Positions 9,735-33,960 of a stretch of DNA of 64,000 nucleotides are shown in pieces. Position numbers and translations under genes: made by a program. The notes under the pieces are model-generated. The model saw only the letters and a program-made list of their open reading frames with translations. It searched no databases and had not been told where the DNA came from. Location of the stretch: positions 186,001 through 250,000 of the forward strand of contig JABSSW010000044.1 in assembly GCA_018902385.1 (NCBI GenBank), in the 5' to 3' direction. The stretch's first letter is position 1. Every line of letters begins with the position of its first letter. Origin of the DNA: Physcia stellaris (Eukaryota; Ascomycota; Lecanoromycetes; Caliciales; Physciaceae).

Positions 9735-9752
9735 CAATCGATAATCGGCGCC
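9735..9752. repeat. Left copy of 18-bp target-site duplication
   Basis: CAATCGATAATCGGCGCC here is identical to 33961-33978. It sits exactly where normal host composition gives way to the AT-rich block. Long, variable direct repeats of this kind are made when non-LTR retrotransposons insert by target-primed reverse transcription. Confidence 0.85.
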
Positions 9753-10555
9753 GAAAAACACATTTTATGCCACAAATCGAATTTTTGAAATAACTCAACA
9801 ACGAAACGTGATATTGACTCAGTTGACGCGTCATTTGAATCGTCTATCTTTTGCGCATCAATCAATGCGTAATTGAATATAATGAAAAAAACGTCATGAT
9901 CGCAATTGAATCAAAAAAATCAAAATATCAACGAGCAAAACATTTTGTTTTTTGTGAACATTCGAAAATGCATTAAACGCATGAAAAATAAAAAAAAAAT
10001 CGTCACAAAAAATCGTTCAAAAATGATTTCAAACATTCGTAATTTATTTTGAAAATTTACAATTTTCGACAATCAATGAAAAACTCGTTAAACGAATCGA
10101 TTTCATGATCAATCAATTTCATAAAAATCAAATCAAAATGAAAAAAAAACAACGTCGTCATTCGTCGCGACATTACAAAATTGATTATTTCATTCAAATT
10201 TTTTTTTTTCGCGAACAAAATAAATTTTCGCAATTGAACAATCGTCGTCGTTGCGTCGTCAACATCACGAATTACGATCAACAAAAATACGAAAATCATT
10301 GTTCGTTTCAACGACGCGAACAAAAAACAACAATTAAACAAATACGAAACGAAACGCATAATCAAAAACATCAACGTTTGCATTGAAAAAAAAAACATAC
10401 AAATTAAACATATTCGTGCGATCAAGAAATTTTTCAACGAAAATTTTGCGATACACGCGATAAACGCAAAAAAAATTGAAAAATTGAAAAACAACAATGC
10501 GTGAACGACGATTTTCGACAAAAAAACAAAAACGATCGTTCAAATTCACGCGATT

Positions 10556-11523
10556 ATGATGAACGAAATGAAAATTAAAAAATTCAATTTAACGACGATC
10601 GAAAAAAGAAAAACGACGATACGTAAAATTCAAAAAAAAAAACGAAAACGTGAAAAAATTGAAAAAAATGAAAATTTTGTACGTGTTTTGAAAAAACAAA
10701 TTCACGACAAAACAATTGTATCATATTATGATTATCGAAATCATCATTTCGAAAATGAAAAACGCGATGTTAAATAACAACATTATGATTGACGAAAAAT
10801 TGAAAATTTGCTCGATGTTTAACAAAATTTGCAAAACGATTCAATGTTATAAATGTTATCAACACGAATATATTACAATTCAATGCACGAAAAAAAAATG
10901 CGATTATTGCGCAAAAACGCATGTTACAAAAAAAAATGTGTACAAAATTACAAAATCAAATGTTGTGTGTGCGAAAAAACACACAATTCATGAAAAAAAA
11001 ATGCAAGAAAAAACAAAAAAAAATTGAACGTATCAAATATCAATTTTCGATCACGTCGACGAAATTTTCGAAACAAAAACAACAATACATCGTCGTCAAC
11101 AAAACGATAACGAAATCAATGAACACGTTCGATAACAATTCAAAATCGATAATAAAAACAAAAAAATTCAATCAATTGAAAAATATACAACGACGAAAAA
11201 TCGAAAAAATTCAAACGAAAAAAACATTATTCGACGAAATCAACAAACGCAAAAAAACAAACATTTATGCATCGACAATATCAATAATTCAATCGATTGA
11301 AACATTGATATTTTCACAAATTTCATCGAATTCGCAAAAATTTCGAAATAAACAAAACGACAAATCGACGTTATCGATTAAAAACAAAAAATCGTCAACG
11401 ATCAAAAAAAAATCAAAAAATCAAAAAAAAAAAAAAAACAATTTTTTCATCACGATTAGTCGAACATTTTTAAAAAACGTTACGAACAAACATACGAAAT
11501 TCAATTCATCGAAAAAATGTTAA
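10556..11523 (+). pseudogene. LINE ORF1 (gag-like) remnant with zinc knuckles
   Basis: Two overlapping open stretches (10556-11027 in part, 10921-11523) carry a CYKCYQHEYITIQC knuckle followed by CDYCAKTH and a later C...H arrangement. This spacing is typical of ORF1 in fungal Tad/I-type LINEs. The product would bind the element's RNA. Composition is extremely A-rich, with K, N, I and T residues dominating, as expected after C-to-T mutation on both strands. It is followed within a few bases by the ORF2 endonuclease start. Confidence 0.7.
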
Positions 11524-11526
11524 AAA

Positions 11527-11973
11527 ACGATACATTGTCGATATTACAATACAACGTCAACAATTCGAAAATTCAAATCATGATATCGTTGTTCGAAACG
11601 AAAAACATCGCAAAATACGACGTTTTGATCATTCAAAAATTTTGAAAAAATTCATTTCAATTCACGACAAATAACAAATTTTCGCAACATTTTGAATTTT
11701 TGTACATGTCAAACGCGATTACGAAAATGTGTTTGTTCGTCAATAAAAAAATAACGAAAACGATTTACATTTACACGTTTCACAACAAAAATTTAATTTC
11801 GTTGAAAATGCAAACGACGAACAACAAAATTATCAATATTCACAACATGTACAATTCATGCAAAAAAACGAAAACAACAATACGTTATTCAATTTCAAAA
11901 AAACGTTGCAAAAAAATTAAAAAAAAAAAAAACACATCGTCGCAAAAAATTTCAATTTACATTATTTCAATTG
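11527..11973 (+). pseudogene. LINE ORF2 endonuclease, N-terminal part
   Basis: Translation reads close to the family pattern LRILQYNVNKSK...YDILAIQEPW...FFVNKRI...HNVYNP: here LSILQYNVNNSK, YDVLIIQK, LFVNKKI and IHNMYNS are visible across frames. This is the APE-type endonuclease that nicks target DNA. The segment is cut off at 11973 by the insertion of element A; the 5 bases AATTG at 11969-11973 are repeated at 29399-29403, after which the endonuclease resumes. Confidence 0.7.
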
Positions 11974-12272
11974 TGTAAAAAATTCAAAATTCAAAATTTG
12001 CAAAAAGTGCGAATCGAATTTCGACTGTCAAGAATTCAAATCAAACAAATTCGAAACATCAATTCACGAAACGATCAATTTTATCATATTAATCATTCGA
12101 CATTCATATCGCATATCGATTAAATATTCATGCGCAAAAATTCAAAAATTCGTACAATTGAACAAACAAAACGAATATATATTGCGAAATTTGCAAAACA
12201 ATTAGTTCAACAATTATTAATTTAATCATATTATTGTTTTTGTTATACATTTTTGATGCAATGTTTTTTACA
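11974..12272 (+). repeat. Left LTR of fossil A
   Basis: 299 bp, TGTAAAAAA...TTTTTTACA ends that are mutual inverted repeats. I aligned it by eye with 29100-29398 and counted ten differences, all transitions. Confidence 0.9.
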
Positions 12273-12371
12273 TTTTAATAATTACAATAATCATCAAATT
12301 AACATCATTCGTGTATAATTTACAATCAAACGATTGAATGTTTTCAATGATTGAACGCGTGTTACGTTTTC

Positions 12372-12622
12372 TGTTACGAGCATGTTTGACAGATAAATCA
12401 GATAAATGTCTAGCAAATAAATTTGACAAATAAATAATTGATATGATATGATCGAACAACGAGTTATGTTTTAATTTTACGTCGAAACTAACGTGATTTG
12501 AGACTTGACGTCGCACATTGCTTGCAATTTCAACATTTTGTATCTATTTGTTTTTGCAAATTTATTGTTTTCGTCTAGTTAATCAATAATACGTCTATTC
12601 AAACACGATTCATGATATTACA
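12372..12622 (+). repeat. Left LTR of fossil B
   Basis: Begins TGTTACGAGCATG. About 247 bases align with 16841-17088; the end is placed at ...TATTACA but is uncertain by a few bases. Confidence 0.85.
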
Positions 12623-15600
12623 ATAAGTTTTCAATTTTTATCGTTCGTCGTGATACGCGAACGTTCAAAAATAAAATTTCAAATCGATCAAATTTTTCGT
12701 GAAAAACAAACGACGAAAAGTTTTTGACGAAACAAACGACGAAAATCGTGTAATTACAAATCGAATTTACACGCAAACGACGAAATTTTCGACGATAAAA
12801 AACGACGAAACGACGACGATTTTTTATTTTTTTTTTTATTTTTTCGAAATGATTCGCAATCATCATGAAACAATTTCATTCAATTTATTTCGTCAAAATT
12901 TGAATATCGACGAAATACAAAAAAACGTTGAACAAATGCTGAACGAAATTCACGAAATCGATAAAAAATTCACGATTCGTTACAAATTTCGTCAATTCTT
13001 TTTTATATCAGACGTTGTGTCGAATCAAAATGACGATGTCACGCATTTTTTGAACATAAAAATCGTTCGTCAATTGAAATATTGAATTCAACATCATTTC
13101 GATAATTTTTTGAACGTGTTCAATGATTTACGCATCGATCGAAACAAATATTTGATCGTTTTAAAAAATTTTCACGAATTCGTCAAATTGTTCAAAATTC
13201 AAAAAAAAAATCTGTTCGATATCGATAATATTCTCGAACAAATACGCGACAAACTTAAAACGTTCGAAAAAAAAAAAAAACGAATGATGAATCAATTCAT
13301 TGACAAACGTATTGAATATGACGATTTGATCAAATTGAATGAAATTCGTCGTTTCGAACGTGTTTTCAATTTCGATTCAAATGAAAATTCAAACAATATC
13401 GATAATGACGAAAAAAAATTTGTTGTTGACGATTCGATCGTTACAAATTTTGTCAAATTTTCGAAAAAAAAACGCACGAACAAACATTCGAATTTCGATA
13501 AATTTACGAACGATACGAATTTTGATTGATTTACGTGAAAAATCAACGTTCACGATAAATTCACGATCAACAATGATTGATACGAAATTGTTCGATTCAT
13601 AATCACGACAATAATCGATTGAATTGAAAAAAAAACAGTCAAACATATTCAGTTTCGTCGATACGACAATTTGAATTATTTCGAAAATGAAATAATGATG
13701 ATCAATTTTTTCGAAAACATTTATGAAAATTCAAATCATCAACGCAACGTACGTCGAAAATATCGAAATTTGATCATGTTCGACATTCAAAATTTTCAAT
13801 TTTTTTATTCGAATTTTTATCGTTTGAATATTCAAATCAATTTCGATCAATTCATTTTGATAAAAAATTTGATTGACAAATTCATCATGTCGTTGAAACA
13901 AATTTTGAACAATTCGTTTCGTCATCATTTTTTTTTGTTCGCGTGAAAAAATGACATTCAACAAATATATAACGATTTGATCAACATTCGAAAAAAAAAA
14001 TTCGAATTCGAATTCAAAAATCAATTTTCGTGATTTTCAAATCGACGTTTGTTGTTTCGATTGCAATATCGTTCGTCAAATCAATCACATCGACGTTTTT
14101 TGTCAAATTCAAAAACGATTATAAACATGATTCGATTATCGATCAATTGATTGTCACGAACAAATGTTTCACGTGTGAAAAATTCGATCACATTTGAAAA
14201 TTTTGTTTCAACGTCAATAAATTTCAAAAACGTCAATGACATAAATTACAAATGTATCAATTGAATTTCGATATTGATTCGAGCGAATTTGATTCGAAAA
14301 ATTGACGATTCACGTCAAAAACGCGATTGATGAATGTTTAAAAATTTTTTATTCACGATAATAATATGTTTGATTTTTTCATCAAACGATTTTTAGTTAT
14401 CATTTGTACGTTATCATTCAACGATAATAAACATAAATTAAAAACTTTAATAAACATTGATGCAATTGATTATGCGTTCATTGATAAAAAAATCGCGCAA
14501 TTTGTATGCAACATGCTGAACATGAAATTTGTATTTTTATTGAAATCGAAATCATTGATTGAATTCGACGATCGTCATGTTTTTTTTATAATTCACGCGA
14601 TATATTTTAAATTGACGATAAAATTACATTTCGAATTGATCGTTTTTTTGTTAATTATTGATTTCGATAATCATTCGATAATTTTAAAAAAATCGTGAAT
14701 AAACAAACATGAAATTATGTTGAACATGATTTACAATAAATTGATTTTTAAATCGTTCAAATGCAATCATCACGACAACATATTCAGTCAAGCGATGCAA
14801 ATTCGTCGTTTAAAAATTTTCAAATCAAATCGTCGATGAAATATATCTAATTGACGTCGCGATGCAAAATTATCGCAAAAAAATAATACAAAACACATAA
14901 CGACGATGAAATTTCGATATATCATTTTGTTTCGTTTCAAAATCAAATTTTTATTTTTTATTGTTGAAAACGAATCAAATATAATCGATTCGAAATGTTT
15001 CGAATGTTCAATTCATTCAAAAATCGATATCGACGACGAGTCGTCAACAATCGAATCAAATAATTCAAAAATTGATATTACGATTGTTACGAAAACGACA
15101 TTCGTCAAAAAAAAAAAAACTGAAAAATCAACGTAATAAACGATGAAAAACGAAAAAACAACAATCAAAATTTTCGTTATTTTCAAAATTGAATTTTGAC
15201 GATTCGATGAATATCGCAATGATTGATGCAATTTTTTTTTGTTTGTTGATCGATGTCAAAAATCGAAAACAAAACGTTCAATGTTTTTTCATTACGATAA
15301 ATCAAATCGATTTCGCGTTCAAAACATTACAAACGAATTTTGAATCGTTAAAAATCGTCGTTATAATCAAGAAATTTTTAAAACACGAACAAATCAAATC
15401 GATATTCGAACGCATAATGAAAAAAATGTCGAAATATTTTCGTCATTTATTCGAAATATTCGATTTTCAAAAAATCATCAAATTGTTTTCGCATAAATTA
15501 TACGATCATAAAATCGAATTGTTAAACGATAACAATTTTTTATTTCGCAATCGAATGTATTTTCTATTCGAATTCAAATTTAAAAAATTCAAAAAGTATT

Positions 15601-16840
15601 TGAAAAAAAATTTGCAAAAAAAATTTATCGTATTTAATCAAACGACATATGTTTCATCAATTTTATTTGCGATTAAATTTAACGATCAATTACGTTTGTG
15701 TGTGAATTATCGTCGATTCAATCACATCACGAAACGCAATCGATATTTTATTTTTTTGATCGAAAAAACTTTGATCAAAATTCAAAATTGCAAATATTTG
15801 ATCAAACTGAATATCATATCGATTTTCAATAAATTTCGAATGAATGAAAAAATGAAAAATTCATCACGTTCGTCATTTTTATGAAATCGTATAAATATCG
15901 AATATTATTTTTGAATTGATCAATGATTTTGCAAATTGACAACATTACATGAATGATTTTTTGTTCAATTTTTGAACGAATTTTGTCAAATTTACTTGAA
16001 TGACATATTCATTTACAGCAAATTCAAGAAGAAACATATCGTGCACGTTCGAACAAGATTGAAAAAATTCAAAAAAATCGATTTACAGATGAATATCGAA
16101 AAATGCGAATTTTTCAAAAAAGAAATGACTTTTCTAAACGTTATATTCTCGATGAATGATTTTCGCATGAATTCAAAGAAAATACAAATCATAATCAACG
16201 AAAACTTCGAATGAAAAATGAACGATATTTTAAAATTTCGATATCATTACGATCGATTTCAATATCGCGTCAAATGATCGAATTGATCGCATGATCGAAT
16301 TTGATATTACGTCGACAACGATGAATTCGATAATGTTCGTGACGTAATGAATAATTATCATCGAAATCATTTTATCGTTTCAGATTCGAAATCATTCAAA
16401 ATTACATTTTTCGTTTTTCAAATTGACGATCAAGATTCATTTGCGAATCGTCGTCGTTTTCGAAAAAAAATCGTCGTTCTGACACTCATTGAAATTACGT
16501 TTGATTAAAATTTGAAAATTTCAATTGAATTTGAATTCATCTTGATTTCATTCGTTCGTTTCAAAATTTTTTTTTTCAATTTCAAATTTCATTATCATCG
16601 TTTCGACGTTGTTTACAGTCAGAATTTACGTCGCATGAAAAATTGAATCGTGTCAAAAACATTTTCAGAAATTGTTGTTCGATTTTATTGAATTGTGAAT
16701 TGATGCAACATATTGAAAAAATCAAAAAATGATGATCGTGAAAATTTCGAATTTTGAATTCGTTCAAGACAATCGACAACGTTTTCGTCTCGAATCAACG
16801 ACGAATCGTCGAAACGACGTTCGCGAAAAAAAAAAAATAA

Positions 16841-17088
16841 TGTTACGAACATGTTTGACAAATAAATCAGATAAATGTCTAACAAATAAATTTGACAAAT
16901 AAATAATTGATATGATATGATCGAGCAACGAATTATGTTTTAATTTTACGTCGAAATTAACGTGATTTGAAATTTGACGTCGCACATTGCTTGCAATTTC
17001 AACATTTTGTATCTATTTGTTTTTGCAGACTTATTGTTTTCGTTTAATTAATCAATAATACGTTTATTCAAGCACGATTCATGATATT
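16841..17088 (+). repeat. Right LTR of fossil B
   Basis: Begins TGTTACGAACATG and matches 12372-12618 closely. The similarity stops at 17088. Confidence 0.85.
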
Positions 17089-17767
17089 CTTCGAATTTGA
17101 ATTGAGCAAAAAATTCGTTCTTCAAAAATCAAAAGTTGAAACGAACATCAAATCGAAAATGAAAAAATTTACAACATACAATTGAATATCGCAATTCAAA
17201 CTAATTGTATTGACATATTATTACGTATTGTTTAATTTAGAAAGCGAACACGAATTCGAAAAATTACAAAAACAAATTATTTATTTTCATACAATGACAA
17301 ATTTACATACGTGATTTCAATCATTCGATTTTATTGACGTTTTCAACGACAAACGTCAATCGTTTCAAGTTTTCGATTATTCACAGCAATAACGACAAAT
17401 CAAAAACATCAAAACAATTGAAAAAGTTTGCGCATCTTGTCGAAACATTCATGCAAAATGAATTTTCTACATTTCAACATTGAAAAACAACGATTTTGAT
17501 CGTTTTGTTTTTTTTGCGAATCATCAAAAATCAAAATACGATCAATAATTGATCGAACGACGATTTCAACAAAAGCATAACAAGATGTTCTAGTCAGAAA
17601 ATCACATGACGATTTCAATAAAAACACGCGATTGCAAAATATTATGAATACAATATAGATTGAAATCAAAAAAACGATAAAAAATTCACATTCGATAAAA
17701 TTAATAAAAAGTCAATCAAAATACAATTATATCGTCAATGATCAAATCAACAAAATTTACGAATGCA

Positions 17768-17932
17768 TTTATTATGAAATAATTGCAATATACATAATGT
17801 GAAAAATAAAATGATTGAATTGTTACTATCTAGAAAACAAAGTGCGAAATATGAATCACAATGTCAAAACGCTAATTCGTTCTTGTCAAAATATTCAGAT
17901 TTCAGTTCTATGTGAAAATTTATCGTAACAGA
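17768..17932 (-). repeat. LTR of fossil C (3' in element sense)
   Basis: Aligns along its length with 22351-22513 and ends ...TTTATCGTAACA on the plus strand. Confidence 0.75.
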
Positions 17933-18581
17933 TGTAAATCAACGAAAGAAAATCACAACGTTTTCGTTGTGTTTTGCTTTCGCGTGTCGAAAAATCAACG
18001 ATTCATCGTTCGAAAAATCTATTAATAATACAAATAAAGAAACAAGAAAACGATTTGTTTTTTCATCAATTGCTCAACGTCTTCAAGAATCGTTGAAATT
18101 GCGACGACGATTTTTCAAATCAAAACTCATCGTGAAACGCTTGAGACGATTCGAAATACTAAAACGAACACGTCAATTGAAATTCGTTGATTCAACTCGT
18201 TGATGAAAAGATGAAATGAAAATGTCTGCGAAATTGAAAACGAAATTTCGTGCAATTGCAAAAAAGTTTAATTTCGCAATATTCGAATCGTATGTTGATT
18301 TGAAAATTTCGATTTTGCACGATTTGATTTGAAATGAAATGTCTGAAAAACGAATCGATTTGTATGAAAATTTGATCGTTATTTTTGCAAATTTCACTGT
18401 CTTCTTGATTGACTTTTTGTCATCGAACGATTTAAGACATGATTTGAAATCTGTATAATGATTTTTGATATTGATTCGACGAAAAAATCATTGATTGACT
18501 ATTTCGAAATGTGAAATTAATCGTAACGTGACAATTATTCAATTGCATTTTTTTCTGTTTAATCATATGACGACAAATAGA

Positions 18582-19355
18582 TTCGGAAGTTTTTTTAAAA
18601 AAAACTTTGTCGAGAATCTTTAGAGTTAGAATTAAATCTGATAAGATTACGAAATTTTCTCATCGAAATCAAAGTCTTTTGCGATTTCATCGATTTCGCA
18701 TTTTAATTGCTTTTTAATTCAATAAGTAAATCATACATTCGAAAACTTGTTTTGAAATACGAAATGGCATTATTCAAAAAATCAAAATATCGAAAATCGA
18801 ACGAGTGCGCATTGAATTATGATGAATATGACATTGTTGTTTCGCAAACGTTGTTGCGAAATTGTTTTACAAACACATTTTTAACATGATTTTTCAAGTT
18901 TCAAAACTATTGCGATAATGAATCGATTTTTGTTATTTTTGCAGCGTTGAAATGCGCTCATTCTGCTTTACAATTTTGACTAAATAAATGAAAATCATAA
19001 ATGATTGTTGATTGAAATGCAAAATGCGAAACAATTGTACAGACGAGAATGAATTAAGCGAAATTTTTCGCAAGCATCTCAACTGACCGTTTGACACAAA
19101 TCTGACAGCGACGAAATTTTCGAAGACTCAAAACTATTGCGATAATGAGCCAATTTTTGTCATTTTTGCAGCGTTGAAATGCGCTCATTCTGTTTTACAA
19201 TTTTGATTAGATAAGTGAAAATCATATGTGATTGTTGATTGATGTGCAATGTGCGAAGAAGTTGCACTCAAACTTTGATGTTTTTCGCCAAGATTGATCT
19301 AACTCGAAAAAATAATAAACTTTTTGTAAAGAAAACGATAAATATTTTTTATAGA
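18582..19355 (-). repeat. Repeat R, copy 1 (minus)
   Basis: An inverted copy of the sequence at 30777-31695. It contains two tandem units of about 230 bp, each with the block reading (plus strand here) CTATTGCGATAATGA...GCGCTCATTCTG. It lies inside fossil C. No coding content was recognised. Edges are approximate. Confidence 0.65.
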
Positions 19356-22350
19356 TTGTGTTCTATATCGTTTTCGATTTTTTTAATTCATTCATGTCGA
19401 AAATAACGTTCGTTTGAATGTTTTTATTTACGTATGTTTTGATTTTCAGTCGTTTCAATGATTCGTCGATTGTTGTGATATACAAAAATATATTCATTTG
19501 TTTGTCAACAATGCGTTCATCAACGATATTTCGTACGATAATTGAATGACAATTATGCAATCGATTTCAAAAATTATTTTTTGACAACAAGAATTCGTCG
19601 ATGAAATTGACGTTGAAATCAATATCGATGTAAACAAATATTTTCTCGTTGTTTTCATCATACAATCGCGTCTGAATAATGACATATTCACGTTCTGATG
19701 ACGATTCACGAATAATGATTACATGCAAAATTGCATGTTTCATTCAATTGATGTATCGTTTTCTATTCATTGTTTGATTTGACTTGATGTCAATATTATG
19801 AATATTGAACATATGATTATTCAAACGAATTCTGTCATCGTTATTGACGTAATTCTTTTTGCAAATATTGCAAAATAATGATGTCATATCATGACGAATG
19901 TATATTTCATCGTTAAAAATTTCGAGCTCAGATGTTTTCGCATGAAAAAAAATGATAATATCATCGAAATTTGCGTGCTCGAAAGTTTCGTATTTGATAT
20001 TCTCATTGATTAATTGTGTTTGTTTTTCGTCATATTCGCTATTTGCGTTATAGTCGTATTGATCGTAAAAAGTCGATATAAACGCGTTATAATTGACATT
20101 GTTTGTAAAAAGTTTTTGATTTGACGAAAACGAAAAATATTGAATTGAACGCGTAAAATACTGAGAAATACGTTGAGAAAAAAATAAATTTTGAATTGCA
20201 AAAATTTGATTTTGCTGTGAATATTGCGATCGATTTTGCGACGACGCAAAAATGTAAACATTTCGCGAAAATGTTTGTCAATTACGTGACGACTGAACAT
20301 TTTGAAATTTAAAAAAATAATTCGTTGAATAATTTTCAATGTATGATTTTGAATATCGATCAAAACGTTCAAAATTTTGAATTTGTTTCGATTTCATTTT
20401 ACGTTGATATGCGATTTCGATCGCATTTTTTTTGTTGATATCATTCGCATAATATTCGATGACATTTTCGAAATTTCGAATAAAGTTTTCAGTTGTTGTG
20501 CGTTTATCGAGTTTTCGTACATGTTTACGAAATTTTTTATTCAACGAGTTTCAAATTTTCGTGAAAACGATCAATTCGAATGCACGAAGAAAAACGTCAA
20601 AACGCATCAAGATGTTCACATATTCGTCAAATTGACGTCGTTTTTGAACGTCACGAATAATGTATTGTTGAATTTGAAATTTAACAAACGAATTCGCTGA
20701 ATGATTTTCGTAACGAATAATAAAAATGAAACAAAAAATTTTTATCGAAAGCATAAAATCGTCACGTTTTGCAAAATTCAAAACGATGTATCAAATCTGA
20801 ATTGCATTTTTCAAGCAAAAATGTAAATGTTCAAGAATATTTTTGTTCGCAATAAATCGACGTACAATTTCAACAAACATGTGAACGTCGATATAAATGA
20901 TTTTTTTTTCAATCACATAATCAATCGATTTCTGATTCTTAAAATATTCGAAATAGAAAAAATCGATATTTGAAATCTTGAATTGATTCGATTTTGTTGT
21001 TATTATCATTTCGAATATTGAAACATCATGACGATCGCGAAATTGATTTTGATTTTTGATGTAATCACGACGATTATTTGAACGATTTCGACGATTTTCG
21101 TGATCGTTATTTGACATGTCATTGTCGAATAATCGAAATTGTTTATTGAAAATTTCGAACGTGAATTGAAAATACGAAAAAATATTTGAATTTTGATTGA
21201 AATTTGATTCGAATAAAAATATCATTTCAAATTTCTGTTTCATGTGTGAAATTTGATCAAAAATAAATTTGTAATTTTCGTTTCGCACATCTTGTTTGAT
21301 AAATGAATTTTGAACAAAAAACTCGAAATTATCATGAAAAACGTTCGATTTTGAATGTAAAACAAATATATTGATTGAAACATTTTTCGTTATATTCAAA
21401 ATGATTGTTTTTTGAAAAACAAAACTTTTGTTAACGAATTCGATTTTCAATTTTTTTTTGAAATTTTTTTTGAAATCAACAAATTCGATTTTCACGACGA
21501 TCGCAATATTGCGTGTTATTTTATTTTTCAACGTTTGAAATTTGTTGTTTATAATGAAAAAAAAAACGTCGAGTTTGTTGTCGAATTGATTCAAACGATC
21601 ATCGAATTTTTCAAATTTGTTCGTGAAATATTCGAGAAATTCATTGTATAATTCGACGAATTGATTTTGTTTACGACGAATGAAATTGACGATATTTTTT
21701 TGATTAACATTCGTTAAAAATGTTTCACTCAAATAAACATTCAATGATTCGCGAAAATGTTTTCGTGACGATTTATTTGATTGTTTCACGTTTTGCATTT
21801 TTGTTTTTTCGTTTCGACGACGTAAATTGACGTTGAAATTCAAAATAAAAAAATTTGATTGAAAAAAAAAAAAAAAAGACTTGAAATTTCTCGTGCTCGT
21901 TGAAAATCGAATTTTCGTTTTTGTTTTGAATTTGTTAATCAACAACGAATCGATTTATAAATTTAAATAAATTGTTTATATGCGAAAAACGAATCGAATT
22001 AATTTCGAAACATGTTATGTTCAGAAATGATCGATTTTGAAAAATTTGAAAGTAAATAAATAAATAAAAAATTGAAACGTGAAAATTTTCGATTTGCGAA
22101 GACGACAGAAACTGCTAAAAATTTTCGATAATAAATTTTCACGAAATTCAAAACTGTTAACAAATTTGCAGAAATAATGAATTTCAATAATGTTTTAATT
22201 GCATGCGTTGCGAAATATCTCGCGATTGTTTTGTTATGAAACGATAACATTTCGTCGTGCGAATTGATTCGTTGTTGTTTCATTGCTTTTGCAAAAGTTA
22301 ATTTCTGACGATAAAAATCAAGAAATCGTAATTTTGAATGATGTTATCAT

Positions 22351-22513
22351 TTGTTATGAAATAATTGCAATATGCATAATGTGAAAGATAAAATAATTGA
22401 ATTGTTATTATCTAAAAGACAAAATGCGAAATATGAATCAGACTGTCAAGACGCTAATTCGTTTTTGTCAAAATATTCAGATTTCAACTTTATGTGAAAA
22501 TTTATCGTAACAG
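22351..22513 (-). repeat. LTR of fossil C (5' in element sense)
   Basis: Begins TGTTATGAAATAATTG and ends TATCGTAACA on the plus strand, so its ends are inverted repeats (TGTTA/TAACA). Confidence 0.75.
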
Positions 22514-23435: not shown

Positions 23436-23695
23436 AGAACACTTTCTATAAAAAAATGTTTTGCGTTTTCTTTTGAAATTCTAAACTAATCGAATAAGAA
23501 ATCACAGAATTTTCAAAATTCAAATCACGAACATCAAAATTGACTTATTGCGTTCATGCAATGTTTCGCAACTTGCACATCAATCAACAATCACTCATGA
23601 TTTTCATTTATTTAGTCAAGATTGTAAAACAGAATGAGCGCAATTCAACGATGCAACAATAACAGAAATCGATTCATTATCGCAATAGTTATCGC
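23436..23695 (+). repeat. Repeat R, copy 2, first part
   Basis: Shares the tip ACACTTTCTATAAAAAAAT with the copy at 30777 and the first internal unit (TTGCACATCAATCAACAATCA... to TTATCGCAATAG). The second internal unit appears only at about 25015, which suggests that about 1.3 kb separates two parts of one copy. Confidence 0.55.
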
Positions 23696-24984
23696 GTGAA
23701 CAAAAAAGTCTGTCAACGAAATTGTTGCAAAATTCGAATTCATTACTCAAAACACGTTCACAAATTCATTTTCAAAACATTATTTCAAGCATTTCACATT
23801 CATCATGCAATTTATTTTGAATTTCGATTTGTTTATCATTGCAAAAACACGTCAAGCGACATTACGAAAACAAAGAAAACGCGAAAAACAGAAAAAACAA
23901 CGACAGTCTGAACAATTGCTCGTTCAGAAACAATTTGCTCAACAATCAAAATTTTTTTTTTTTTGATATCGACGATATCGACGTTTTTCTACTTATTGTC
24001 ATTCATTTCAAGTCAACGAACAATCTTCTGTTGTCAGATTTCGAGAGTCTCAATACATCGTCAACGATCAAAACGATATGAAATGAATTTACGACGAATT
24101 TTATGATTTAAAATCGAGAGCTCGCTGTCAAGATTTCGTCATTTTTTGTCGTTCATTATTCGATGTAACTTTCGATGCTTTTGCGATGAACAAAAATACG
24201 ATATCTCAAATCAAAATCGCTCAACAACAGTTGCAAAAAAAACAAATTGAATAAAAATTCGAGTTTTTTTGTTATTGATGACGCATTGAGCAACACGTTG
24301 TAAAAAGAATAGAAAAGAGATTTTCGAAAACTTTGAAAGATAAACTGAATATCTCGTCACAAGAATACAAATCTTTTTATTTTAAAGAAATATTTTCATT
24401 ATTTGAATTATACAATGCTTATGAAGATATTTGAAATTCTCGAGATAAATGAAAGGACGATTACGTGATTGATCGAATCGTAATAAAACGACTTTATTTT
24501 TCGCTTTGTACGATTATTCGCAACAACGATATCGAAAGAATGCGTATACATATAAGAAAAAAATAGTATATTTCTGTGCGAAAAAAAAGTTCTTGAAACA
24601 ATTTCTTGAACACTATTTGTACGACGAAATTCAAAAACGTTTTTTTTTTATTATTGAAATTCGAACAATTGATTTATCGATGTTAACGTGATGAAAAAGC
24701 AATCAAATGATCGATTTTCATCTGATTCGAAATCAATCGATTCAAATTATTGAATTCGATATCACGTGTCTTATTGTTTTATTCGATATCACGTGTCTTA
24801 TCGTTCTTTCGCACTAGACTCGATCAGAAATCATGATATGTTTCGAAAATGTGATCAAATGACTGCAATTTCTGCAGTTCAAACTTCATGTCTGACGTCG
24901 AGTCGATCATTGAGACTTTTCAAGTTATTTCAGGCTTGCGACATTCTTTCTCGATTTGAATAGCTCAGAATTTTCTTGACGATC
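23696..24984. other. AT-rich stretch between parts of R, unassigned
   Basis: Less mutated than the surrounding elements (more ApG and CpT remain). It includes a 27-bp tandem duplication at 24754-24807 (ATTCGATATCACGTGTCTTA core). No coding domain recognised. It may be an insertion in repeat R. Confidence 0.35.
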
Positions 24985-25492
24985 AATCATCAAAATTGTG
25001 ATTTGTTGTTGCAATTGATTTGCAATTTACACATCAATCAACAACGACATATGATTTTGATATATCTAGTCAAATTTGTAGAGCAGAATGAGCGCATTTT
25101 AACGGTGCAAAAATAACAAAAATCGATTCATTATCGCAATTGTTTTGAAGCTTGAAAAATCATGCTAAAAATGTGTTCGTAAAACAATTTCGCAACAACG
25201 TTTGCGAAACAACAATGTTATATTCATCATAATTCAATGCGCATTGATTCGATTTTCGATATTTTTGATTTTTTGAATAGTGTTCATTTCGTGTTTCAAA
25301 ACAAATCTTCGAATGTATGATTTATTTACTGAGTAAAAAAGCTATTAAAATGCGAAATCGATGAGATCGCAAAGAAATTTTGATTTCGATGTGAAAATTT
25401 CGTAATTTTATCAAATTTGATTTTAACTCTAAGAGTTTTCGACAAAGTTTTTTAAAAAAACTTTCGAATCTATTTGTCTGAATAATAAAAAA
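24985..25492 (+). repeat. Repeat R, second part
   Basis: Matches 31195-31690 and, inverted, 18582-19010. It ends with a TTTTTTAAAAAAACTTTCG block like the other copies. Continues copy 2 or is an independent partial copy. Confidence 0.55.
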
Positions 25493-26919
25493 AACAATTT
25501 TATCGAATTTACAGTCGAACAAAAAATATGCTGTACAAACATTGAAAACGATTTTATCAGATTTTTCAGTTTTGTCATTCGTTCGACGAAAACGTCAATT
25601 TTATCGTTTCGTTTTTAGAAATTATTTGATCATTGTAATTCGACGAAAATCGCAATCTGAATAAATCATAATTTTTTCAACAGACTTCGCGTATACGAAA
25701 CGACGAACACAATCGACATTAGAACGAAATACATCGCTCGACGAAAATTCACAATCTGTACAAAATCGCATGAATGTTATATGCAACAAAACTCGTCTAA
25801 AATCAAATATAAACGCAATGAACGTTAAAACAGATTATAAATCGTTGAATACATCGTTTTATTTTTTGTCTCGTTGATTCGTTTGCACAATAAATTTTTG
25901 ACGAAACGTTTAAAATTACACGTTATAATGTATTCGAATCAAAATCACATATTTCACGAATCATAATACAGATTGTTCAAGTCGTCTTTTCTTAAAATGT
26001 GCAAACGCAAAAACAAAAAATATTTTTCGTTTTTTCGAAATCAAAGAAAAATTCAATTCGTGTCGACGAAACGCATTTTTGAAATGTTTTTGAAAACATT
26101 TATTCTGTAATAATTCAATTCGATTAAATCGTTCGTGTGAAAATCAACGTTTCGAAACAAACAATAAACGAATAGCAAAAATTATAACATTTTATTTTGA
26201 TCATAATATCATCAAAATTTCAACAAACACGACAGACGATTCAATAAAAAAAATCATTGAAAAAAAAACGTGAAAACAATCGTCAATTTGACGTTTTGCG
26301 ACGATTTTTGCAAACGTTTCGATCAATTCGAATTTGTTAAATGCGAAAATCATAAAATCAAATCATAAAAAAATTATAAATTTTTCGAAAAATTTCTATC
26401 AACAAAATAAAAAAAATTATGTATTTTTCGAATGATTTTCAAAAAAAAAATTATAAATTCTTCGAAAAATTTTTGACGAAAAATTAGTTTTGCGAATAAT
26501 TTCGTTTTTGTTTTCGATTGTGCATCAAACGTGATCGTCGATGAATATAATAATATTGATAATGCGCGAATTTTTCAATCTGATCAATGAATGACTGTGA
26601 CAGAAACATATTCACGAATTTGAAATAAAACATTTATGATTTCAAATTCATAAACGATTTGATTAATTCATTGTTACAAGTTTCGTGTGCAATTGTGAAA
26701 CAGAAATTAATTATTTTTGATATGATCACGTTCGCATTGACAACAAGACGAAATTGAAAATTTAACATACAATTGCTTTACGTGTCATCAAGTTTTATAA
26801 GAAAAAACGTCGTCAATACAGACAATTTCTGATCGAACGCGTTGATGAAAACATTTTCGAACATATGTGATCGAATAAAGTAAACAAACGAGATGATTCA
26901 TCGAATATCGAACACGATT
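25493..26919. other. Interior of element A, unassigned
   Basis: AT-rich, no recognisable coding part on either strand. Holds short repeated AAAATTATAAATTTTTCG-like pieces at about 26360-26480. Confidence 0.4.
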
Positions 26920-27425
26920 TCAACATGCAAACACGATCATAAACTGCGAAATAAAAATCGTTGTAAAAACATTTCGTCAAAATTCGAACATGAATGAAAA
27001 CTACGAAATCATAAATTACGAAATATAAAATCGTTGCAAACATCTCGTTAAAATTTGAACATATCAACAAAATCATAAATCGCGAAACATAAATCGCTTG
27101 TCAAGACATTTCGTCAAAATTCAAATATATTTTCATATGTAATAAAATCAATCGAAAGCGAAATATAAATCAATTGCAAACATTTCGTTCGAACTAAAAC
27201 ATACGAATAGAAATCAAAGATAAATTCAACATGTAAACAGATCAAAAATTGCGAAATATATGATCGTCGCAAACATTTCGTCAAAATCTGAACATGTAAA
27301 CAAAAATAAAATACGCAACGAATGTGCGTTGAACGTCTCGTCATGTTTTAACATGCGTAAAATCATACATTGCAAAATATAATGTCGTTGCAAAACATTT
27401 TAACAAAATTCGAGCAAACATGAAT
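26920..27425. repeat. Degenerate tandem repeat, about 60-95-bp units
   Basis: At least six imperfect units share the pattern GCGAAATATAAATCGTTGC, AACATTTCGTCAAAATT and GAACATG with A-rich linkers (cores near 26946, 27018, 27073, 27160, 27253 and 27370). No coding potential. It lies in the non-coding interior of element A. Confidence 0.6.
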
Positions 27426-27894
27426 CAGAAAATTGCGAACAAGCATCTCATGATAACAAACAATCAGAAAATAAAACATAAATTGTGCATTTACAAAAAT
27501 GAAAATCGAAAAAATCTCGCACAAACACAAAGTTTCATGATTTTTTTTTTGTCATATAGAACACAACGTCGATATAATTTCGAACGTCACATAAAACGAC
27601 TGACGATTAATGAGAAATTCGTTTGCAAAATATACATGACTCAATGAAAATATCATCGTTTAAATTTCTTGCGAAATTTTTCAAAAATAAGTCAAACATG
27701 CAAATAATGCGCGAAAAACTCGCGATAATGTTAATAACATAAAAATCAAAATAAAATGTCGTTTTGCTTCTTGACGAAATTATGACTAAAAAAAAAAAAA
27801 TTTCGTTAAAAACAAACATTTAAAATTCATGCATCAATTATAAAACATTGACATTGACAAAAAAACAATTACAAATATAATCAAATCGCGAACA

Positions 27895-28420
27895 AGTCGT
27901 GTCACAGATTTAGATCAAATCGTACAGCGAGAACGTATTTGAAATTCAATAGCACGTTTTGCATTCAGTATCATGACGCGTTCAGAGTTGAACGTGTTCT
28001 GTAAAGCATTCTATTTGATAAAGCAATTGACTTAAATAATTATGTCAATATTGTGACGCGAATCGACGTTCTATAGTTTCGATTAAACGACTAGATCTCG
28101 AACAAATCGTATAGCGAAAAGATATCTGAAAATCAATAACACGACGAATACAATCTTTCGATGATACAATTGACTCGAAAACAATTCAATATCATAACGC
28201 GTTCAGACGTTCAACGTTTTGCAAATATAATCTCTTTGATAAAACAATTGATTCGAATAGTCATGCTAGTTTCGCGACGCGATAAGCGTTTTACAGTCAC
28301 GAATAAATGATCGAATACGATTAAATCGTGCAACAAAAACATATTTGAATATCGAATATCATGACGCATTCAGCGCTTTGTAAATACAATTCGTTGACAG
28401 AACAATTGATTCAATAATTC
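27895..28420. repeat. Degenerate tandem repeat, about 190-220-bp units
   Basis: Three imperfect units each contain AAATCGTACAGCGA-like sequence followed by TATTTGAAATTCAATA and, further on, a CATGACGCGTTCAG-like stretch and GATAAAACAATTGATT (unit cores near 27920, 28105 and 28325). No coding content. Confidence 0.6.
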
Positions 28421-28463
28421 GACAACACGATTTCATGTCATCATTTTGTGCTGTTTATTGTCT

Positions 28464-28535
28464 AGAATTTACGACGCATGAAGAGTTGAATCGTGTCAAA
28501 AACATTTTCAAAAATTGTTGTTCGATTTAATTGAA
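28464..28535 (+). repeat. 72-bp segment shared with fossil B
   Basis: Matches 16621-16692 in 67 of 72 positions by eye (AGAATTTACG...CGCATGAA...TTGAATCGTGTCAAAAAC). In B this lies shortly before the right LTR. It points to common descent of the 3' interiors of A and B or to another fragment of B. Confidence 0.6.
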
Positions 28536-29099
28536 CGTTGAATATAGTGAATGTGAAATGAAAATAAAAAATCGAAAAGATTTTCGAAATTTGATATATC
28601 GAATGCGATCGCGTTTATTCGACGTCTTTCGCGTTTAATCATTTTTTTCTCGTCATTTCATCGATTTTGATATATGAAACAGAAAAATAAAAAGATAAAT
28701 ATTGATTCAAATTCAAATTTCATTGTCATTCAATTAGTTGTCAATCATCATATCGAAATTCGTGAATTGTACGAAATCAAATTTTCGATATTGAAAACAA
28801 CAAACAATTGAATCATCAAATCATACTTTTCTTGAATCATTCACGAAAATAATTTTCAAATTTTTAACGCAAACTGATAGAAATCGAAATGAATGATAAT
28901 TTCGAATGCGAAAATCACGATCACAATACTTTTTCAAATTTTCGAATTTCAACAATATGCGATGCGAAAATCACGATCATAATGATTTTTCAAGTCATAA
29001 AAATGCAACATATTTACAGCAAACGTGCAAATTTCAACAATGATTTTGAGCAAATGATATAATTATTTCAAAAAGTTTCGATGTTTAGAAGAAAACGCG

Positions 29100-29398
29100 T
29101 GTAAAAAATTCAAAATTCAAAATTTGCAAAAAGTGCGAATCGAATTTCGATTGTCAAAAATTCAAATCAAGCAAATTCGAAACATCAATTCACGAAACGA
29201 TCAATTTCATTATATTAATCATTCGACATTCATATCGCATATCGATTAAATATTCATGCGCAAAAATTCAAAAATTCGTACAATTGAACAGACAAAACGA
29301 ATATATATTGCGAAATTTGCAAAACAATTAATTTAACAATTATTAATTTAGTCATATTATTGTTTTTGTTATATATTTTTGATGCAATGTTTTTTACA
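29100..29398 (+). repeat. Right LTR of fossil A
   Basis: Ends TTTTTTACA and is followed by AATTG, which repeats the five bases before the left LTR. Confidence 0.9.
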
Positions 29399-30776
29399 AA
29401 TTGAAACGAACAACATGTGAAAACAAACGTCAACGCATATGAATTCATTGTTACAATGAAAAATACAAATTGAAAAAAATCATATCAATCGAATTGATTA
29501 TTTAAAACAAACACAAAAACGAAAACACAATCGATTTCACATACACGACGTCGTTATTCAAAAACAATATTATCGAAACGAACATCGACAAAAAAATGAA
29601 CAATCATTCGAATCATCGTTCGATCAAAACGATATTGAATTTACGAACGAAAACGATCGAAACAAAACGCACAAAAATTTGAAAAAAAACGAACGTAAAC
29701 GTTTTTCGAAAAAAATTACAAATCAAAATAACGAACAATAAAACGTTTTCGTCATCGAAAAAATATTTAACAATCGAACAAACGAAATCGATAAACAAAT
29801 AAAAAAATTGATGAAAACAATTCAAAAAATCATCGAAATATTCATTTCGTTTAACAAATCGAACGTATATTCGAAATCGAAATTTATTGAAAAATGCAAA
29901 CAAATTTCGAAAACGACAAAAACGATCAAAAAAAAATATCAACGCAAAAACGAAATCGAAAAACTGTGAATATCATACAAAAAAATCAAAAATCATTTGA
30001 ATCGCGTCGTCGTCAAAATCATAAAAATACAATACAAAAAAAAAATCGAAAAAAAATGCGATATATCAAATAATATGTGAAAAATTTGCAAATGAACAAA
30101 AAACAAAATTTCGAAAAAAATTTGCATGTCAATTTTACACGATTATTCATTCATGTTATCAAAAACGAATTCAATCAAAAAAACAATCATATTTTTGAAA
30201 AAAAAATTTCGTCGTCGTCAACGATAATTTTAACGAATATACAAAAAATTACATACAATCAAAATTTGAAATTGAAAAACATACAATTTCACGAAATAAT
30301 CAAAATTATTGCGATACAAATTTTCAACAAAATTTCAAAACACGACGACATCATCAACAAAATACTGAAATGAATCAACGACATCATAACATTTCATTTA
30401 CAACGCATATTTAACGTTAATTTGAACGCAAAATATTGTTTTGAACATTTTCGAAAATCGATTACAATCGCATTGCGCAAATCAAACAAAAAAACGTATT
30501 CATTCGCATTTTCATATCGATCGATAATTTTGTTGAATACAATAAACAAAATCATGAAATTCATATTGATTAAACGTATTAATTATTTGACGAAAACGTA
30601 CAATTTGTTGTCGTGTACGTATTTCGAAATCAGAAAAAACACATTCACAAAACACGTTTTGTATTACATGATGAAACGTATACATTTGATTTGAAATAAA
30701 AAAAAAAATCGTAATTATGTTGTTGAACGTAATGAAAACATTCGACAACATAACACGACAAAAATTATTGCACAAT
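29399..30776 (+). pseudogene. LINE ORF2: endonuclease end and first part of reverse transcriptase
   Basis: The LINE resumes after element A. The frame near 29600-29650 reads SNHRSIKTILNL, like the DHxPI end of APE endonucleases. From about 30420 the reverse transcriptase is clear: CFEHFRKSITIALRKSNKK, then YRSIILLNTINKIMKFILIKRI, matching the fungal LINE pattern of REStxxLRKPGKKDYxxPxSYRPIALLNTLGK, and LLNVMKTFDNITRQKLLHN matches the LLLDVTGAFDNV motif A. A copy of repeat R interrupts it directly after LLHN. Confidence 0.75.
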
Positions 30777-31695
30777 AGTACACTTTCTATAAAAAAATAT
30801 TCAGTAAATTCGCTTGACGCGAATGATCGATCGAGAAAAATTCTGATCAATTTTGCGTTCGTATTGTTTAAAGTCGATAATTTTCATCAATTGAAAATTC
30901 GAATTTTCAATGCGATAAATTATCAAATTCTTTTCGTTCAATCATCAAAACTCATTTTGAGTGCGAAAATTCGTACAGTTGTTTCGTATCTTGCACATCA
31001 ATCAGCAATCACATATGATTTTCACTTATTTAATCAAGATTGTAAATCTGAATAAGCGCATTTCAATGTTGCAAAAATGACAAAAATCGACTCATTATCG
31101 CAATAGTTTTGCGACTTCGAAAACTTCGTCGTCGTCAAATTTGTGTCAGACGATCAGTTGAGATGTTTGCGAAAAAATTTCGTTTAATTCATTTTCGTTT
31201 GTACAATTGCTTCGCATCTTGCATTTCAATCAACAGTCACATATGATTTTCATTTATCTAGTTAGAATTGTAAATCAGAATGAGCGCATTTCAATGCTTC
31301 AGAAATTATTGAAATCGATTCATTATCGCAATAGTTGTGAAACTTTGAAGATTGCGAAATTGCGAAATTTGTGTTCGTTTCTCAACTCTTCGCAATGTTC
31401 GCAACGTTTCAATGCGATCTCGATCATAATTTCATGCGCATTCGATCGATTTTCGATATTATTGATTATTTGAATAGAGTTCACTTCGAGTTTCAAAACG
31501 AATCTTCGTTTGTATATTTTACTGACTGAATGCAAATGTTATTAAGATGCGAAATCGATGAAATCGCAAAACGAATGCGAAATCATTGAGATTCTGCGAA
31601 AATTTAAGCAATTTTATCAAATCTGATTTTAACTCTAAAAGCTTTCGACAAAGTTTTTTTTAAAAAAACTTTCGAGTTTACTTGTTTGAAAATGA
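30777..31695 (+). repeat. Repeat R, most complete copy, inserted in the LINE
   Basis: About 0.92 kb from ACACTTTCTATAAAAAAAT to an A/T-palindromic TTTTTTTTAAAAAAACTTTCG end. Two tandem internal units (about 30975-31110 and 31200-31340) contain CAATCAACAGTCACATATGA...GAATGAGCGCATTTCAATG. The reverse transcriptase frame before and after fits together once this is removed, so R arrived after the LINE. No coding content; it may be a non-autonomous element or a solo terminal repeat. Confidence 0.65.
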
Positions 31696-33608
31696 AACGA
31701 TTCGACGAAAAATTGATACGATTTATTGATTTTTTTTTGAACAACAAAATGACGATATTAAAAACAAACGAATACGATATCGAATAATTGAAAATTTTTA
31801 TAAACATTTCACAAAGTTTATTCATGTCATCGATTTTATTTTATTTTTACAACGCATCATTATTGAAAAAATTAAAACGAAAAAATATTTTTGCGAACGA
31901 TTTCGTCGATGACGTGAAATTGATGAACGAAAATCAAATCATTGAAAAATGTAACGAAAAAATAATTAAAACACACGAAAAAATTTGCGTATCGTGAACA
32001 TTGAAACACGAAATGAAATTCGCATCGTTCAAATATCAATTCATTTATTTCAATCGAAAAAAAAACACAAACGTTATCGAATTTATACGATTGTTCGAAT
32101 TCAATCAAATGATAAAAACGAAAAAAAAAATGAAATATTTAAAAATTATTATGAACACGAAATTCAATTGAAAAACGCACGTGAATCAAAACAAAACGAA
32201 AACATTGAAATCGATAAAAACATTGCGAAATTTCAACGATACAACATAAAATGCAAAATTTTCACGAATGAAACAAATGATGCACGCGATTTTCATTTCA
32301 CAATTCACATACGCATGTTCGATGTGATACACGTCGACAAAAAAAAATTATTTCAAAAAAATAATCAAGAATTTGACGAACGTGCAATATCAAATCGAAA
32401 AAATTATAACAAAAACATACAAAATAACGTCGAAAAAAACGTTCAACATCGAAATCAATTCAATGTCAATGCATTTGCGATTGAACAAATTCATCAACGC
32501 GACGACAATAAAACTGATCACAAATTCGACGTACGAAACGATTATAAAAAATCGTTTCATCAAAAAATCGAAATGCGTTAATTCATTGAAAAAATTAATG
32601 AATAAATTCGAACGCAATACGAACATCAAAACAAAAAATATAAAAAAAATAATTTCATTCGCGACGTCGTCATGATGAACATCGTCGCGCGTACGTATCA
32701 ATAAAAACAAAAAAAAAATCGAAAAAAATCACAAAAAACAATTCGAATTGTATTCAATCAATTACATTTACATCGACGAAAATGACATCAACGATAAAAT
32801 AAAAATCGTAACGATTTCGTCAAAAACGAATTCAACAACGTCAAAAACATATTTGAAATTCATAACGTCATACACAATGTATTCGACGAAATTGTACGAA
32901 ATCATTTTGACAAAAATCATGAAATTACATTCGTTTATCGAAAAAATGAAAAAATCGAAATTTGTCATTTGCATCGATAATCAAACAACGATATTTGCGA
33001 TTTACAATTCGAAAATCAATTCGAATCAATATTTGATGAAATGAATAATATGATTGATTGACGATTTACGACGTCAAAACATCGAAATGAAATTGCATTG
33101 AATATCGATTCACGTTGACATCGAAAACAATAAAAAAACGAACGTTGCGATCAAACAAATCACGAAATGAAAATTGAAAAATCAAAAAAATAAACGAAAA
33201 AAAATGAATACGAATCAAATTGTTTCGCAAACACAATTGATGAAAATGTTGAAAAACGCGATCAAAATCACAATGAACAAAAAAATGCAACATCAATGAA
33301 TTAACGAATGAAAAAATTGCGATAAAAACAAAACGTTATATTCGATAATAACGAAATCGAACAAATCGATATTGAAATTACACGACAAATTCAACAAAAA
33401 ATTCAACGCAATTGCGATACAATTTCGAACGATCAAAATTGATTTGAAAACGTTTTTGTACAATAAAAAAACAATCGAAAATTTTTCGTGTTCGTGCAAA
33501 CGTGACAAACAAACGATTAAACATGTGTTTTTCGAATGCAACAAATTGAAAAAATATCGAAAAATTTTTGAATCGACGAAATTCGAAAAGCAAAATGAAA
33601 AAAATTGA
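31696..33608 (+). pseudogene. LINE ORF2: reverse transcriptase end, RNase H, C-terminal finger
   Basis: RFDEKLIRFIDFFLNN and ISQSLFMSSILFYFYNA match the fungal LINE pattern IPQGSPxSPILYLFYNA, and FANDFVDDVKLM is the catalytic FVDD box. RNase H is seen as YIDENDIND, MYSTKLYEIILT and FVICIDNQTTIFAIYN (about 32748-33044). The end carries CSCKRDKQTIKHVFFEC (about 33485-33540), the usual C-terminal zinc finger of these elements. Many breaks occur throughout. Confidence 0.75.
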
Positions 33609-33960
33609 AATTGACGAACGTGTTGATCAATTCGATCAATTTGAAAAAAACAACAACGTTAATAAAAAAATCAAAATTCATTGATTATTTAAAAATTTCA
33701 TTCGAAAACGACGAAAAATAGCGAATGCGAAAAAAATGCATTGAAATGAAAAATTTTACACGAAAAAAAATTAAAAAAATCATAAAAATAATGATGTTTG
33801 AAATGATTTGCTCGAACAAAAAAACAAAACATCAAAAAAAAAAAAAAATTGTATAAAGTCAAAAATCTTTTAGAAATGATTGGCTCGATTAGTTTTAGTC
33901 GCATAACGAATTTCAGACGAAGTCGATTCGAGTGTTTAATGAACTAATCAATCAATCAAT

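Follow-up and report, generated by a model that had tools for sequence, protein, structure and literature searches.

The window analysed here is a stretch of 64,000 nucleotides from the fungus Physcia stellaris (Ascomycota, Lecanoromycetes), positions 186001-250000 of contig JABSSW010000044.1 in the assembly GCA_018902385.1 (G000:C44:186001-250000 in our numbering, where C stands for contigs and L for loci). The assembly contains 43,974,083 bases in 147 contigs. Dinucleotide counts and the edges of the repeat families identify positions 9753-33960 as a retroelement nest in which cytosine has been changed to thymine at CpC and CpT, with the corresponding G-to-A changes from the other strand. 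The whole nest lies within one insertion of a long interspersed nuclear element (LINE). It is flanked by an 18-bp target-site duplication, CAATCGATAATCGGCGCC, and the left copy (9735-9752) and the right copy (33961-33978), both on the forward strand, match exactly. A scan of the window against Rfam gave no match.

The outer element is represented by a 5' part (9753-11500, forward strand), which belongs to a dispersed family, and by a 3' part (32200-33960, forward strand), delimited by a genome search and by the sequence, which ends in a TCAA-type tail. When the sequence is read by eye, a zinc-knuckle-like stretch is seen at about 10830-10900 and an endonuclease-like stretch at about 11540-11640, and the putative identification as a LINE is based on this reading. 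Inside the LINE is a Ty3/gypsy-type element with long terminal repeats (LTRs), located at 12372-17088 on the forward strand, whose LTRs (12372-12619 and 16841-17088) are 94% identical. Its coding part (14210-16199, forward strand) aligns with 65% DNA identity to the unmutated copy L039, and the element was assigned to the family through this relative, which bears a reverse transcriptase. A second, LTR-like pair (17766-17931 and 22348-22513, 91% identical) and the DNA between them occupy 17766-22513, and a 3-kb probe overlapping this region detects dispersed relatives with a matching mutation signature. A genuine low-GC coding region and an organelle insert were both rejected as descriptions of the block, which is a nest of transposable elements with a target-site duplication, and whose unmutated relatives have a GC content of 0.52.

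The edges of the mutated DNA coincide with those of the inserted element. Matches were listed for both ends of the LINE, the best 40 candidates being scored in each case. Among the matches listed, 31 of 43 non-self rows for the 5' part begin at 9750-9764, including 21 at 9753-9754, and no row begins to the left of this; for the 3' part 31 of 39 finish at 33956-33968, and no row finishes to the right of it. The flanks and both target-site copies are unmutated, host DNA having been checked in the window and at a few other loci. Both copies keep their CC and GG, and the mutation therefore starts and stops with the inserted DNA. In the original prediction the block was placed at 9753-33855. The left end was correct, while the right end is really at 33960, where both the repeat family and the 18-bp duplication stop. 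The zone that was left out, 33857-33958 on the forward strand, has lost CpC and GpG (CC+GG 1) and retains CpT and ApG (CT+AG 10), and looks like a lightly mutated edge of the LINE.

All 16 dinucleotides were counted in 9753-33855 (24,103 nt, GC 27.5%) and in the two flanks (9,752 and 30,145 nt, GC 49-50%), of which the right one includes the final 105 nt of the element. The block contains four CC and five GG, where the frequencies in the two flanks would predict 1446 and 1447 (ratios 0.003 and 0.003). CT and AG are found 296 and 318 times against 1677 and 1619 expected (0.18 and 0.20), whereas CA (1734), TG (1359) and CG (1453) are close to the expected 1611, 1609 and 1307 (1.08, 0.84 and 1.11). 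The full counts thus agree with the original prediction, made from a few lines of sequence, that CpT, CpC, ApG and GpG are nearly gone while CpA, TpG and CpG are still common. CpA and TpG do not share the depletion of CpT and ApG, and host DNA does not share the bias, since CC, GG, CT and AG in the flanks are at 0.94-1.11 of expectation. The proposal of a joint CpT/CpC target holds insofar as both contexts are lost, but not equally, as the loss of CpC exceeds that of CpT. The loss of CT and AG is also uneven within the block, with a CT+AG count of 71 in 24001-25000 and of 2 in 11001-12000.

Trinucleotide counts point the same way. Each NCC is found at 0-0.7% of the host rate and each NCT at 0.2-32%, and ACA, TCA, ACG and TCG are raised relative to the host. 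Relative to the host, GCA and GCG are down to 0.63 and 0.52, and CCA and CCG to 0.5%, as would be expected if RpG (R being a purine) and CpC are hit as well. A script imposed eight saturated mutation rules on the host flanks, and the resulting composition was compared with that of the block by L1 distance. The best-fitting rule was CpY to TpY (Y being a pyrimidine), with a distance of 0.167, compared to 0.301 for CpT only, 0.473 for CpC only, 0.761 for CpA only and 0.612 for unchanged flanks.

The same signature recurs in copies scattered over many contigs. With a 3-kb piece of the block as probe, 44 matches were obtained (best 40 of 105 candidates scored), from which 30 loci were cut, including the window itself and four overlapping pairs. 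All 30 have 0-8.0 CC+GG per kb (host 120.0) and 4.8-87.4 CT+AG (host 136.8), while CA+TG is 117-137 (host 133.6) and CG 50-65 (host 54.2). In a search with the reverse transcriptase profile RVT_1 the best 150 of 527 candidates were scored and the 30 best matches examined for composition; 24 are mutated, five are normal (L038-L041 and L066) and L052 (GC 0.471) is slightly low in part. The mutated loci have a GC content of 0.235-0.367 and a CC+GG of 28.8 per kb in L043, 10.1 in L054 and no more than 4.3 in the remaining 22, and the loss of CpT is graded from copy to copy. L043 (C30, around 441242) is patchy, with some 300-bp windows that contain no CC or GG and one of normal composition (113 per kb). 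Some copies of the LINE (C56, C4 and C71) still share 94-95% identity with the saturated copy in the window (9753-11500), most others being 70-80% identical. A near-deterministic rule would push all copies towards one end state, and the identity among mutated copies may therefore not measure their age.

The mutation spectrum could be read directly against L039 (C5:1165021-1168497), an unmutated Ty3/gypsy copy. The 44 matches listed for L039 (best 40 of 254 candidates scored) include L039 itself and a second unmutated copy, L040 (C12). L039 and L040 have long open frames and are unmutated despite their many heavily mutated relatives. They are 95.0% identical, and C-to-T differences between them amount to 2-4% in each context (CA 14/453, CG 9/448, CT 17/439, CC 18/474). 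There are 42 transversions in 3,474 sites, and 130 of the 176 differences fall at one codon position. Eight mutated copies (L068-L075), including the two least diverged, were fetched and each aligned to L039. Counting C-to-T changes on both strands in the order CC, CT, CA and CG, these gave 361/467, 190/429, 15/453 and 10/447 for L068; 407/469, 218/433, 17/450 and 12/446 for L069; 444/473, 326/438, 21/453 and 14/447 for L070; 430/467, 323/434, 33/450 and 18/444 for L071; 431/471, 319/431, 31/453 and 14/447 for L072; 449/466, 355/433, 29/449 and 16/444 for L073; 424/473, 325/438, 47/454 and 34/448 for L074; and 444/459, 380/431, 49/445 and 20/442 for L075. Thus 77-97% of CpC, 44-88% of CpT, 3-11% of CpA and 2-8% of CpG have been changed, and the context order is CpC > CpT >> CpA ~ CpG. 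With the baseline not subtracted, the rate per site at CpC is 1.6-2.9 times that at CpT and 21-59 times that at CpA. In L068, the least mutated of the eight, the CpA and CpG changes equal the divergence between the unmutated copies. It has 576 C-to-T or G-to-A changes in 3,456 sites, 30 reverse transitions and 26 transversions; the other seven are similar, and the eight copies have 22-49 reverse transitions and 20-81 transversions each. Both strands are affected in every copy.

It is the base on the 3' side, at +1, that sets the rule. In L068 the base at -1 has little effect at CpC (ACC.83, CCC.80, GCC.74, TCC.74) and some effect at CpT (CCT.50, GCT.36), and TCA and TCG were changed in only 5 of 141 (.04) and 4 of 142 (.03) cases. 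The first C is changed less often in CCC (.64) than in CCA or CCG (.84), which would fit a sequential change; once the middle C has become T, the first C would be left as a slower CpT target. In this copy the strands are also treated unequally. At positions 2-600 of L068, 68 of 91 CpY cytosines are changed on one strand and 4 of 70 on the other (p 3e-20), and the strand difference reaches p<1e-4 in three of the 11 300-bp windows of this copy. In Neurospora, repeat-induced point mutation (RIP) leaves strand-coherent tracts and spares most single-copy DNA. L069 has 532 of the 551 mutated sites of L068, where 377 would be expected if the two were independent, and at positions 1-600 its extra changes are on the strand that was spared in L068. 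The pattern suggests that a common ancestor went through one strand-coherent round and L069 later through another, a sequence of events that we reconstruct from the aligned copies. L069 looks like a copy that was mutated once, duplicated and then mutated again.

The two LTRs of an element are identical at the time of insertion, and the differences between them therefore record later events. In the Ty3/gypsy element all 14 differences are CpT/ApG transitions, and in the second pair this is the case for 10 of 15. An independent test is provided by a copy of the ribosomal DNA (rDNA). The 5.8S match at C41:45899-46052 (L076) sits in a mutated copy that also contains parts of the large subunit (LSU) and small subunit (SSU) genes. 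At positions conserved in Rfam (alignment lines LSU 1-453, SSU 1491-1672 and the whole 5.8S), C-to-T changes are found at CC 21/23, CT 15/30, CA 0/24 and CG 0/22, with three other changes. This CpY-mutated pseudogene was the one match reported, and no intact rDNA copy was seen, among the best 39 of 2,644 candidates scored. The 5.8S pseudogene ATTTCGTG could be derived under the CpY rule from ATTCCGTG, which we take to be a form found in Eurotiomycetes.

The coding consequences follow the same rule. The 150 RVT_1 matches scored contain 250 TGA, 33 TAA and three TAG as in-frame stops, and ten are without stops. In the eight aligned copies there are 107 in-frame stops, of which 93 are TGA, 92 of these from TGG, and eight are the TAA of the open reading frame itself. 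The main stop that a CpY rule can create is TGA from TGG, and a long open frame within a block of this kind is for that reason no evidence of a gene. One frame of 384 amino acids persists within the mutated block at 20791-21945 on the reverse strand.

Very probably, then, these repeats, comprising a LINE and nested LTR elements of which at least one is Ty3/gypsy, have been inactivated by a RIP-like, repeat-directed C-to-T process that targets cytosine followed by a 3' pyrimidine. The original prediction that the process is RIP-like and follows a CpY context rule is thereby supported. The alignments to unmutated L039 and the rDNA pseudogene speak for it, as do the LTR pairs and the repeat edges, and the context rule itself is shown by these data. 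According to the mechanism that we propose, repeats would be recognised and mutated as in RIP, presumably premeiotically, by a homologue of the RID-type cytosine methyltransferases that reads the +1 base and accepts C or T there instead of A. CpC is the context that the process changes fastest; the rate at CpT is lower by a factor of 1.6-2.9, and CpA and CpG are almost entirely spared.

Some observations weigh against this reading. The differences within the second LTR pair include three of 15 at TpG (CpA) and two transversions. None of the 77 windows of the other seven aligned copies reaches p<1e-3 for a strand difference, both strands being already heavily mutated there. In the window copy (14210-16199), which is the most diverged comparison with L039, C-to-T changes are found at CC 234/261, CT 207/245, CA 56/266 and CG 37/235; the values for CpA (21%) and CpG (16%) exceed the reverse transitions (48 in 1,987 sites), and there may be a weak or late loss at these contexts. 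The escape of L039 and L040 means that the process is either incomplete or not currently active. The enzyme and the timing are things that we infer, and a CpC-preferring RID-type enzyme would be unusual, as those parts of the literature that are cited below link RID to CpA or CpT.

The original prediction had pointed to methyltransferase genes of the RID and Dim-2 types, and one DIM-2-type and two RID-type genes were indeed found as the three hits of a PF00145 profile search of the genome. The DIM-2-type gene on C3 has an open frame of 1,118 amino acids and an ENV motif. The RID-type gene L037 on C5 has an open exon of 816 amino acids, another of 135, and an EQT motif, while L035 on C6 has a shorter open exon, an EET motif and two TGA within intron-like gaps. 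We take ENV, EQT and EET to be the motifs that go with the DIM-2 and RID subfamily names, and the RID assignment is based on these motifs rather than on a tree. Between the two RID-type proteins, identity is 40% over 174 amino acids in the catalytic part and 34% over 149 amino acids upstream, and in both genes the target-recognition part sits behind an intron. Relatives of the C5 RID-type exon in PDB are bacterial C5 methyltransferases, DNMT1 and DNMT2. Any of the three genes, whether of the RID or the DIM-2 type, could encode the mutator. The prediction had further spoken of a different enzyme; this, too, we infer, and candidate methyltransferases are present. A MAT alpha-box gene with an open frame of 345 amino acids is located on C4 and was the only MAT gene found. 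In the window itself there is also a short tandem array at 57244-57348, with four copies of the 20-bp unit TCAGGGTCCATTTCAGGGTC.

It is a tentative idea, and one to which we give somewhat less than even chances, that the RIP target rule has been fully exchanged, such that the mutator reads a 3' pyrimidine and excludes A and G. The mutator would then probably be one diverged RID-type paralogue, the short one on C6 with the EET motif, which would now be CpY-specific. Alternatively, two processes may be superposed, one specific for CpC and one for CpT, for instance one for each RID-type gene, or RID together with DIM-2. Three methyltransferase genes are available for this, and CC+GG does not exceed 8.0 per kb in the 30 probe loci or 28.8 in the 24 mutated RVT_1 loci, while CT+AG varies from 0.3 to 87. 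Both contexts are, however, raised together in all eight aligned copies, the rates differing by a factor of 1.6-2.9; a single enzyme with two affinities would explain this, and we consider two mutators unlikely. It is improbable that the repeats were methylated at CpC and CpT, as by a DIM-2-type enzyme, and have decayed gradually by deamination without any burst. A DIM-2-type gene is present in the genome, the loss of CpT is graded among copies, and part of a 2026 review describes non-CG methylation by Neurospora DIM-2 with a preference for CpT. Here CpC changes faster than CpT, and in L068 361 of 467 CpC (77%) have been changed with only 30 reverse transitions and 26 transversions in 3,456 sites, the latter fewer than the 42 in 3,474 between the unmutated copies. 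A strand-coherent patch (68/91 vs 4/70) would not be expected from slow decay either, and the few transversions together with this patch in one copy argue for bursts.

Editing of repeat DNA or retroelement complementary DNA (cDNA) by an AID/APOBEC-type cytidine deaminase would account for the predominance of C-to-T and G-to-A changes, for the prominence of retroelements among the targets and for a strand bias, which APOBEC-type editing also displays. These deaminases read the 5' neighbour, in TC, CC or WRC contexts, while here the 3' neighbour decides (in L068 TCA 5/141 and TCG 4/142, against ACC.83 and GCC.74). The +1 rule thus fits a C5-methyltransferase-type enzyme better. Both strands are affected in eight of eight copies and an rDNA copy is affected as well, so that this was not an event confined to cDNA; a genome search for APOBEC_N, run without a positive control, gave no match. 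Altogether, a deaminase is very improbable. Dipyrimidine damage of the ultraviolet (UV) type, or some other general bias of AT-rich DNA, has a negligible probability. CC and CT are dipyrimidines, but TpC before A or G is unmutated, the host flanks on the same contig are normal with a sharp edge, and the copies of one family span the whole range from unmutated to saturated. UV damage, AID/APOBEC editing and slow decay of 5-methylcytosine were accordingly rejected on the L068 spectrum, the -1 and +1 contexts, the strand patch and the edges.

A RIP-like process with a CpY rule has consequences for how RIP is detected. The standard indices read the block as free of RIP, with TpA/ApT at 0.42, (CpA+TpG)/(ApC+GpT) at 1.38 and none of 47 one-kb windows positive; the thresholds are those we take as customary, and are close to those given in part of PMC7882544. 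Genomes of this kind may therefore be missed by index screens, and a CC/GG test would detect them. The target rule of RIP serves as its signature, and since it is here inverted and nearly complete, the target preference of RIP is not fixed. As the CpY rule makes stops mainly from TGG, inactivation should act largely by missense. Two RID-type genes and an inverted +1 rule offer a natural contrast for locating the RID residues that read the adjacent base. If the rule has indeed been exchanged, the context of RIP would be an evolvable, swappable property of the target-recognition part of RID, and repeats of other fungi with a CpY rule would have been scored as RIP-negative.

The sections of the literature cited here describe several context rules. 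The order is CpA>CpT>CpG>CpC in Neurospora, while in Trichoderma reesei, where it was measured in crosses, CpA~CpG come first and CpC last (PMC5496416). Pseudogenes of rDNA were found to carry RIP changes at CpA and, in Neurospora, where rDNA copies are affected too, also at CpT (PMC5555474). The RIP types listed in the part of Amselem et al. (2015) concerned are CpA, CpT and CpG, and not CpC; Magnaporthe oryzae, Botrytis cinerea and Sclerotinia sclerotiorum have CpT-biased RIP with CpA as the other leading target, and a RID motif is suggested to be involved (PMC4352252). The RIPCAL report gives CpA as usual, CpG in two cases and CpT as raised in some. CpT was dominant in the alignments of Van Wyk et al., CpA and CpT are reported for Anisogramma and CpA for M. 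graminicola, and the lichen fungus Endocarpon passes the CpA indices. RIP-like defences were concluded to share a preference for CpA in a survey from 2025 that covered 1,239 fungal genomes (PMC12543289). Two sources lean the other way. In the S. nodorum repeats treated with RIPCAL, CpC/GpG are among the depleted dinucleotides, with CpA dominant, and in Rhizoctonia solani AG8, called CpG-biased by its authors, the spacing of single-nucleotide polymorphisms is densest for CpC (one per 214 bp, against 370 for CpG, 422 for CpA and 491 for CpT). No report of CpC-led RIP of repeats was found in the open-access literature searched, and an earlier one may exist elsewhere; within that literature, a variant of RIP with a CpC-led target rule, as deduced here from sequence comparison, appears to be new.

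The P. stellaris process has features in common with each of these systems. As in T. reesei, the context order is specific to the species, and CpC, which is last there, is first here. The CpT target is shared with Magnaporthe, Botrytis and Sclerotinia, where CpA co-leads, whereas here CpA is at baseline and CpC leads. Microbotryum and Aspergillus (PMC4352252 and RIPCAL) and R. solani AG8 also have non-CpA contexts, but with a bias towards CpG, which is kept in the present block (ratio 1.11). In AG8 the heterozygous C/T sites are found in genes and repeats alike, while the mutation described here stops at the repeat edge. Methylation induced premeiotically (MIP) in Ascobolus, which involves Masc1, is likewise repeat-directed and linked to an enzyme of the RID/Masc1 type, but consists of methylation without mutation (PMC4352252), whereas here the bases are changed. 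Shared with Neurospora RIP are the repeat-directed C:G to T:A changes on both strands, the presence of RID-type and DIM-2-type genes, and affected rDNA copies. The usual CpA preference of RIP is absent (CpA 15/453 in L068 vs 14/453 between the unmutated copies, and 0/24 in the rDNA), and stops are TGA from TGG instead of the TAA and TAG from CAA and CAG that would be expected under CpA-directed RIP. The order CpA>CpT>CpG>CpC of Neurospora thus contrasts with CpC>CpT>>CpA~CpG in P. stellaris.

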